Below, piece by piece: positions 18,372-33,431 of a DNA stretch of 50,391 nucleotides (positions are counted from its first letter, which is position 1; each line of letters opens with the position of its first letter). The notes below the pieces were generated by a model. That model was given only the letters and a program-made list of their open reading frames with translations. It was not told the DNA's origin and searched no databases. The translations under genes were made by a program, and so were the position numbers. The stretch is from an uncultured Clostridia bacterium. Lineage in GTDB: Bacteria > Bacillota > Clostridia > TANB77 > CAG-508. The stretch is from assembly GCA_947623555.1 (NCBI GenBank), contig CANQGW010000007.1, positions 1 through 50,391 on the forward strand. Direction: 5' to 3'.

Positions 18372-19514
<1,143 letters not shown>

Positions 19515-26421: not shown

Positions 26422-26485
26422 ATCACCCCCCAAAAAATATAAACTAACTTTAATTTGTTAAAAGACACGAAAAGGATGAGAATAC

Positions 26486-26626
<141 letters not shown>

Positions 26627-26663
26627 GACATAAACCTCCTTTTATTTTCTTTACCCACTGTAT

Positions 26664-26693
26664 ATTGTAACACCAAGAGTTAACAAAAGTCAA
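26664..26693 (-). promoter_or_regulatory. Promoter of the left surface operon
   Basis: TTGACT (26688-26693), 18 bases and TACAAT (26664-26669) on the minus strand. The right copy has the same arrangement. Confidence 0.8.
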
Positions 26694-26940
26694 TTCTTTT
26701 TTTAATTTTTTATTATACTAATACTTTCTTACGCAGTATAATTGTATTTGTATTGACTTTCAATATAAAAAATAGTAAAATTGTAACATATTTTATAAAA
26801 TATATTTATATGTTTTAGCTTATCTACCTAGTTGTAGAATAAGAATCCGACTTTTTGACAAAAGCCGGCTTTTTATTATAATATTTTTAGTTAACATTAT
26901 CAATACTTTTATGTTAATTTTTTCCATTTTTTATATTCTA
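26694..26940. other. Spacer between the tgt fragment and the left leader
   Basis: AT-rich, no ORF. The only structure is a hairpin at 26847-26868 (CCGACTTTT with AAAAGCCGG) followed by CTTTTTATT, which would terminate plus-strand transcription. No match to tgt or queA seen. Confidence 0.5.
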
Positions 26941-27000
26941 TGTTCCTAATGGCATAAACACTGGCGTTTGTATATCTCCGTGTGGTGTGTGTACTATTTT
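26941..27000 (-). pseudogene. tgt: Remnant of the tgt 5' coding region
   Basis: Reading leftwards the 60 bases translate [20 protein letters not shown]. Intact tgt (residues about 21-40) reads [23 protein letters not shown] identity is very high over this stretch (four differences in the best 48 bases). The first 20 codons and everything after codon 40 are missing. A copy of the tgt promoter lies just upstream. Confidence 0.9.
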
Positions 27001-27027
27001 ACCATAATTATTTGCTTTGTCTGGTTA

Positions 27028-27056
27028 ATTATACGGTATTTTAGAGAGGGTGTTAA
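27028..27056 (-). promoter_or_regulatory. Orphaned copy of the tgt promoter
   Basis: TTAACA (27051-27056), 17 bases and TATAAT (27028-27033). The surrounding 45 bases match the tgt promoter region. It may still fire and transcribe towards the left surface operon. Confidence 0.75.
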
Positions 27057-27068
27057 TATATAAAAAAT

Positions 27069-33104: not shown

Positions 33105-33215
33105 TATAATTTTTCTCCTTCCTTTTATTTTTATATTAAAATGTGATTTCTAACGATGCCTTTTCTTATATCACCTCCCAAATATAAATTAACTTTAATT
33201 TGTTAAAAAACACGA

Positions 33216-33255
33216 AAAGGATGAGGATACCTATAACGGTTCTTCCTCATCCTTT
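33216..33255 (-). terminator. Attenuator-type hairpin in the right leader
   Basis: AAAGGATGAGGA and TCCTCATCCTTT form a perfect 12-bp stem around a 16-base loop; TCGTGTTTTTT follows. The TAG of the leader ORF (33231-33233) is in the loop. The arms 33177-33195 and 33256-33280 form an outer stem around it. Confidence 0.7.
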
Positions 33256-33365
33256 AAGTTAATTTTATATTTATTTTGGGCACAAGAAAAAACTCTTCTT
33301 GTAAGAAGATTAGCTCTCTCTCTCTCTCTCTCTCTCTCTACGGCTGCAACGGTTTCAAGTTTCAT
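33231..33365 (-). CDS. Leader peptide with (Glu-Arg)n repeat, right copy
   Basis: 44 codons: MKLETVAAV, four Glu-Arg pairs, ANLLTRRVFSCAQNKYKI, NLKDEEEPL. AAAGAGG lies upstream of the ATG. Compared with the left copy the repeat is three dinucleotide units shorter, so the reading frame downstream is unchanged. With one unit more than 13 (n=14) the stop would be TAA at the base of the hairpin. With two more (n=15) it would be TAA directly after the tract. The reverse strand also has an open frame across the tract, but no ribosome site. Role inferred as a length-sensitive attenuator for the downstream operon. Confidence 0.65.
   Translation of the reverse strand: MKLETVAAVERERERERANLLTRRVFSCAQNKYKINLKDEEEPL
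33314..33339. repeat. Dinucleotide tract (CT)13 / (GA)13
   Basis: An uninterrupted 26-base tract inside the right leader ORF. See the 16-unit tract at 26569-26600. Confidence 0.95.
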
Positions 33366-33401
33366 AACATCAACCTCTTTTTATTTTCTTTCCCTTCTTT
33401 T

Positions 33402-33431
33402 ATTTTACACTATACTATTTACAAAAGTCAA
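33402..33431 (-). promoter_or_regulatory. Promoter of the right surface operon
   Basis: TTGACT (33426-33431), 18 bases and TAAAAT (33402-33407) on the minus strand, 30 bases after the queA stop. Confidence 0.75.

Follow-up and report, generated by a model that had tools for sequence, protein, structure and literature searches.

Twin AG-tract leader elements before surface-protein genes of an uncultured Clostridia bacterium as probable phase-variation switches acting by transcription attenuation

Results

The window (the whole 50,391-nt stretch of DNA that was analyzed, from an uncultured Clostridia bacterium) contains twin elements of one layout on the minus strand, the right one at 33216 to 33431 and the left one at 26471 to 26693 (Table 1). 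Downstream of each leader ORF lie a paralogous gene with Big_2 domains, at a distance of about 126 to 129 nt in both modules, and then a giant repeat-protein gene. The two modules (leader, Big_2 gene, and giant-protein gene) form a tandem duplication between queA and tgt. The duplication is marked by a remnant of the tgt 5' end at 26940 to 27060 (minus strand), which matches the intact tgt (18372 to 19499) and its upstream region with 92 to 93% identity over stretches of 56 and 49 nt. In the assembly, two frameshifts divide the queA gene (PF02547; 33461 to 34527, minus strand) among three frames, the sign of either a pseudogene or an assembly error.

Table 1. Features of the right and left modules
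Feature	Position	Strand	Details
Right module, promoter TTGACT-18-TAAAAT	33402..33431	-	Consensus scan, 10/12 matches; such scans alone are weak evidence
Right module, Shine-Dalgarno sequence AGAGG of the leader	33374-33378	-	
Right module, leader ORF, 44 aa	33231..33365	-	ATG at 33365; assembled in the ON frame
Right module, AAACCGTTG motif	33347..33355	-	Constant spacing to the tract that follows; DNA conserved whichever of the two frames is read
Right module, phase tract (AG)13	33314..33339	-	
Right module, intrinsic terminator hairpin	33216..33255	-	Fold; T run after it, about 33205-33212
Right module, controlled gene, 437 aa	31791..33104	-	N-terminal membrane anchor, Flg_new repeat, three Big_2 domains (Pfam)
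Right module, second gene, 1552 aa	27108..31766	-	Secreted repeat protein
Left module, promoter TTGACT-18-TACAAT	26664..26693	-	Consensus scan
Left module, leader ORF, 46 aa	26486..26626	-	Assembled in the ON frame
Left module, phase tract (AG)16	26569..26600	-	
Left module, intrinsic terminator hairpin	26471..26510	-	Stop codon in the loop; -20.4 kcal/mol, z -5.6
Left module, controlled gene, 565 aa	24659..26356	-	Membrane anchor, Flg_new, four Big_2 domains
Left module, second gene, 1638 aa	19723..24639	-	Protein with Flg_new repeats

The right leader encodes the peptide MKLETVAAV(ER)4ANLLTRRVFSCAQNKYKINLKDEEEPL, and its TAG codon (33231 to 33233, minus strand) sits in the loop of the terminator hairpin. 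This hairpin folds with -21.7 to -23.3 kcal/mol (z about -6), and none of 20 shuffles of its 220 nt was equally good. The expected number of 16-nt GA runs, from shuffling the window, is 0.00. An earlier note on this DNA had described a promoter spacing of 18, a leader ORF, a hairpin, and a stop codon in the loop as common to both copies, and coordinates and folds confirmed this description. The right tract, which the note gave as (GA)13, reads as (AG)13 after a one-base shift. As the note had said, this tract is three units (6 nt) shorter than the left one, which leaves the two copies in the same frame, and the leader peptides differ at GI/RV and K/E. Its "compensated hairpin" was an error for the two window copies: the change is a one-sided C-to-U (G-C to G-U) in the left 3' arm, and the other difference between the two hairpins lies towards the loop. 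True compensation is present in a related set of hairpins.

A run of AG units encodes alternating Arg and Glu in whichever frame it is read. In both window copies, a tract with n = 1 mod 3 lets translation enter the terminator and end at the stop codon in the loop, and one with n = 0 mod 3 leads to a stop one codon past the tract. With n = 2 mod 3, the left copy has a stop 12 nt past the tract, and the right copy has a TAA at the foot of the hairpin. Both copies are assembled at n = 1 mod 3, the ON phase. Because translation of the right copy at n = 2 mod 3 ends at the hairpin foot, this phase may also be ON by analogy to the rule established for Streptococcus gallolyticus pil1 (PMC3894217), in which case two of the three phases of this copy would be ON.

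Next, the distribution of the tract in relatives was examined. Searches of related genomes found the leader-ORF attenuator again, as the earlier note had anticipated. Combined BLAST and pattern searches yielded 101 T(AG)8+ tracts in 15 of the 30 genomes of the genus, with 32 in genome G007, 19 in G024, and 14 in G025, and the reversed-pattern control yielded 1 match. Within the genus these tracts sit at the 5' ends of ORFs. The stricter pattern T(AG)9 occurred in 66 of 292 genomes of the family, representing 21 of its 39 genera, and the order-wide count was 20 of 143 genomes, a few of them outside the family. The named matches were metagenome-assembled genomes (MAGs) of uncultured Clostridia; viral contigs searched for the motif plus the tract gave no match. 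The genome to which the window belongs has a third tract (C4; n = 14, OFF) upstream of a prepilin-like gene (L078). Among its other genes are those for a prepilin-peptidase-family protein and T2SSE ATPases.

The AAACnnTTG motif before the tract is a further conserved part of the cassette. At the motif position, TTG was present in 93 and AAA in 97 of the 101 genus tracts, and the motif was kept whichever frame the start codon sets; in the window's own genome, the exact motif together with the start of a tract occurs only at the three tracts. Since the frame is reset by the tract, a 5' cassette inherited from a common ancestor could explain why the frame is free, but it does not obviously explain the conservation of the motif.

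To compare the copies, the tract regions of relatives were translated in all three tract phases. The usual pattern was a long frame from one phase, with the others stopping soon after the tract. Class A consists of ORFs of 400 to 680 aa that have the tract near their start and usually include a prepilin-like GITLIALVVTIVVLLILAG segment. In class B, the tract is part of a leader ORF, mostly of 40 to 120 codons, and a terminator separates this ORF from a downstream prepilin-like or Big_2 gene. AG cassettes were also observed in or before genes resembling those for membrane acyltransferases (L213 and L190), and the switch is therefore not confined to pilin-like proteins. At another locus (L131, G024:C6), the ON frame of the tract is 33 aa long, and small genes, possibly phage structural genes, lie downstream; a scan of this locus for a hairpin found none.

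A run of AGA codons in a leader ORF ahead of a terminator is also the general layout of an attenuator, and the Arg (AGA)/Glu (GAG) codons might stall ribosomes when charged tRNA is low, with the stall setting the terminator. Several results make such an amino-acid sensor very improbable. The AG tract also occurs inside long structural genes that lack the attenuator layout, and frames are scrambled among the copies, a state in which no sensor could work. The folds computed around the terminator showed no evident alternative antiterminator hairpin, and the controlled genes encode Big_2, Listeria-Bacteroides-repeat, and prepilin-like surface proteins, not proteins of arginine or glutamate metabolism.

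The geometry expected of a phase-variation switch acting on a terminator was assessed in class B representatives, mostly with different leaders and terminators. One phase reached the terminator in 16 of 16 representatives, whereas dinucleotide shuffles predict 3.9 (P about 4e-13, provided that the representatives are independent); the requirement for leaders of at least 35 aa gives a slight bias toward reaching close hairpins, not those 90 to 136 nt away. In 15 of these 16, exactly one phase did so. In a slightly different set of 16 representatives, every hairpin was better than all 20 shuffles of its own stretch. A loose hairpin finder matched everywhere and sometimes chose the wrong hairpin (e.g., at L050 and L114); the stricter scans were relied on. 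The position of the ON stop varied: it was in the loop in the window copies, two G024 copies, and Lapin-016 bin83, in a hairpin arm in L078, L143, and L155, and well past the hairpin in G007. A stop trap after the tract, CTATAnTTTAG, is conserved in several clades, and such traps were found in 10 of 16 representatives versus 7.3 expected (P = 0.13), a level not beyond composition.

The earlier note had proposed that both the ORF and the RNA structure are under selection, with substitution bias in the former and covariation in the latter as checks. None of 21 distinct G007 leaders, 15% divergent on average, had a premature stop in the ON frame, whereas 12.6 sequences with a stop were expected when columns were permuted among sites sharing the consensus base (P = 0.0026); these leaders were picked for a common end, yet all complete G007 leaders pass the hairpin. 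In the G007 hairpin, 99.5% of cells held standard pairs and seven cells were changed on both sides, and the covariation score was above all 500 shuffles and all slid controls, so that the covariation check came out positive. The bias in the ORF did not appear: there were 26 synonymous alleles in the G007 leaders versus 23.4 expected, which is no excess. These substitution patterns show selection acting on the pairing of the hairpin and on the openness of the frame across it, and to this extent the proposal was borne out; for the sequence of the peptide it was not. The open frame, together with the lack of a synonymous excess, suggests that it is the act of translation that matters, not the peptide product.

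This result bears on whether the leader might encode a functional small protein, with the tract and hairpin incidental. A start codon, a Shine-Dalgarno site, and a frame open across copies are what such a protein would have, but in addition to the synonymous counts, peptides are unrelated between families while the relation of frame to terminator is kept, and most copies are out of frame. Of the alternatives considered here, we regard this one as the least probable by a small margin.

Tract lengths were then compared between copies; with one MAG per species, the variation seen is between paralogs and species. Among genus tracts, 11 were ON and 73 OFF (P = 4e-5 versus one third, with copies that are not independent). 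Near-identical paralogs differed in n, and the difference changed the frame in 15 of 22 pairs; at L051, tracts of n = 13 and 11 are followed by an identical 140 nt. Two G024 attenuators with the layout of the window copies, a loop stop, and a similar peptide (VYASKISFISYTQNKYKIKLKDEDNLL) have n = 11 and 14 and are OFF, and the same alternative frame is kept open in both. Contrary to the earlier note, the frame was thus not kept, since the tract changes it freely in relatives and paralogs. Such free change contradicts the kept-frame version, yet it matches the prediction for a phase-variation switch. In G024, G025, and G007, most tracts are OFF and one or two are ON, a proportion below one third. 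One possible meaning is that few surface variants are expressed at once in these genomes.

The tract lengths were read from consensus assemblies of short reads, and slippage errors may be among them. It could be argued that the differences are errors of assembly or PCR slippage in dinucleotide runs, which are error-prone in short-read MAGs, and that the frame is truly fixed. This is most unlikely, given that the out-of-frame alleles are the majority (73 of 84) and lie several units apart, and given that stop-free alternative frames are kept in both classes.

Discussion

Our results suggest, with a probability of roughly 0.86, that the two window elements are phase-variation switches that operate by leader-peptide transcription attenuation. 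Sequence analysis shows the tract, the frames, the terminators and their relation, the variation between copies and species, and selection on openness and pairing; from these we infer expression in the ON and OFF states as well as surface location. In the proposed mechanism, the AG tract would gain or lose 2-nt units by slipped-strand mispairing at replication, and each change of a unit, as read from the sequence, shifts the frame in which the leader ORF is read. Ribosomes in the ON phase would translate into or across the terminator, the hairpin would be blocked, and RNA polymerase would enter the surface-protein genes. In the OFF phases, ribosomes would come off the RNA shortly past the tract, and the terminator would then form and end transcription. 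In class A, where there is no terminator, an AG cassette inside long surface-protein genes would switch translation directly.

A wider proposal is tentative, and we think it rather less than likely to hold in full: that uncultured gut Clostridia of one order owe a combinatorial repertoire of surface proteins, spread over the whole genome, to one dispersed AG cassette, used both in genes and as an attenuator, with most loci OFF and only a few ON at any one time, and that AAACnnTTG marks a dedicated function (e.g., slippage tuning or a cassette-exchange site).

About half of the genera of the family have such AG tracts, and a single genome can have as many as about 30, mostly in or before genes for prepilin-like surface proteins. 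Since one cassette serves in two ways, the switching of translation can be compared directly with that of transcription. A simple sequence rule would make it possible to tell from metagenomes which surface genes are ON and which are OFF, and it would account for the truncated appearance of such genes in automatic annotation. In the literature searched, which covered few subscription journals, no earlier report of the AG cassette was found, and there is one experimentally shown case of phase variation by a leader-peptide attenuator, that of S. gallolyticus, to which the AG cassette would add an independent and far larger one. The principle is already known; what appears to be unreported is the AG cassette, together with its scale, double use, and lineage.

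In S. gallolyticus, the pil1 locus undergoes leader-peptide phase variation by GCAGA repeats, with similar behavior at pil3 (Danne et al. 2014; PMC3894217). Expression is low when the stop codon lies about 40 to 50 nt before the terminator and high when it lies 4 nt upstream of the terminator, inside it, or past it; expression rises when the terminator is deleted and falls when the start codon is mutated (PMC3894217). The elements described here share with pil1 and pil3 a repeat in a short leader ORF with its own start, a premature terminator, and surface genes after it, and in both systems a stop codon that lies upstream of the hairpin is shifted into it or past it by a frame change. The streptococcal repeat is a pentanucleotide, present in 13 to 22 units at two loci for sortase pili. 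In contrast, the repeat here is the dinucleotide AG, in 8 to 27 units at up to about 30 loci per genome, with many unrelated terminators, before genes mostly for prepilin-like or Big_2 proteins of uncultured Clostridia, and the AG cassette is also used inside coding genes. By this analogy, the window elements would work like pil1 but differ in the repeat unit (AG, not GCAGA), which points to the same kind of mechanism and not to the same element.

Intragenic slippage switches are known from the G-tracts of Bifidobacterium breve pilus genes (PMC9187656), the CT repeats of Helicobacter oipA (PMC10564699), and the AG repeats of Mycoplasma MmyCI (PMC3498834), the last of which shares its unit with the cassette described here. 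The class A copies resemble these switches, with a tract near the 5' end of the gene and a frame shift that switches translation, whereas in the window copies the tract is in a separate leader ORF and acts on a terminator. As in ribosome-controlled attenuators of the trp type, the position of the ribosome on the leader would decide whether the terminator forms. Unlike in those attenuators, no metabolite would be sensed, and the state would be heritable and set by the length of the tract.
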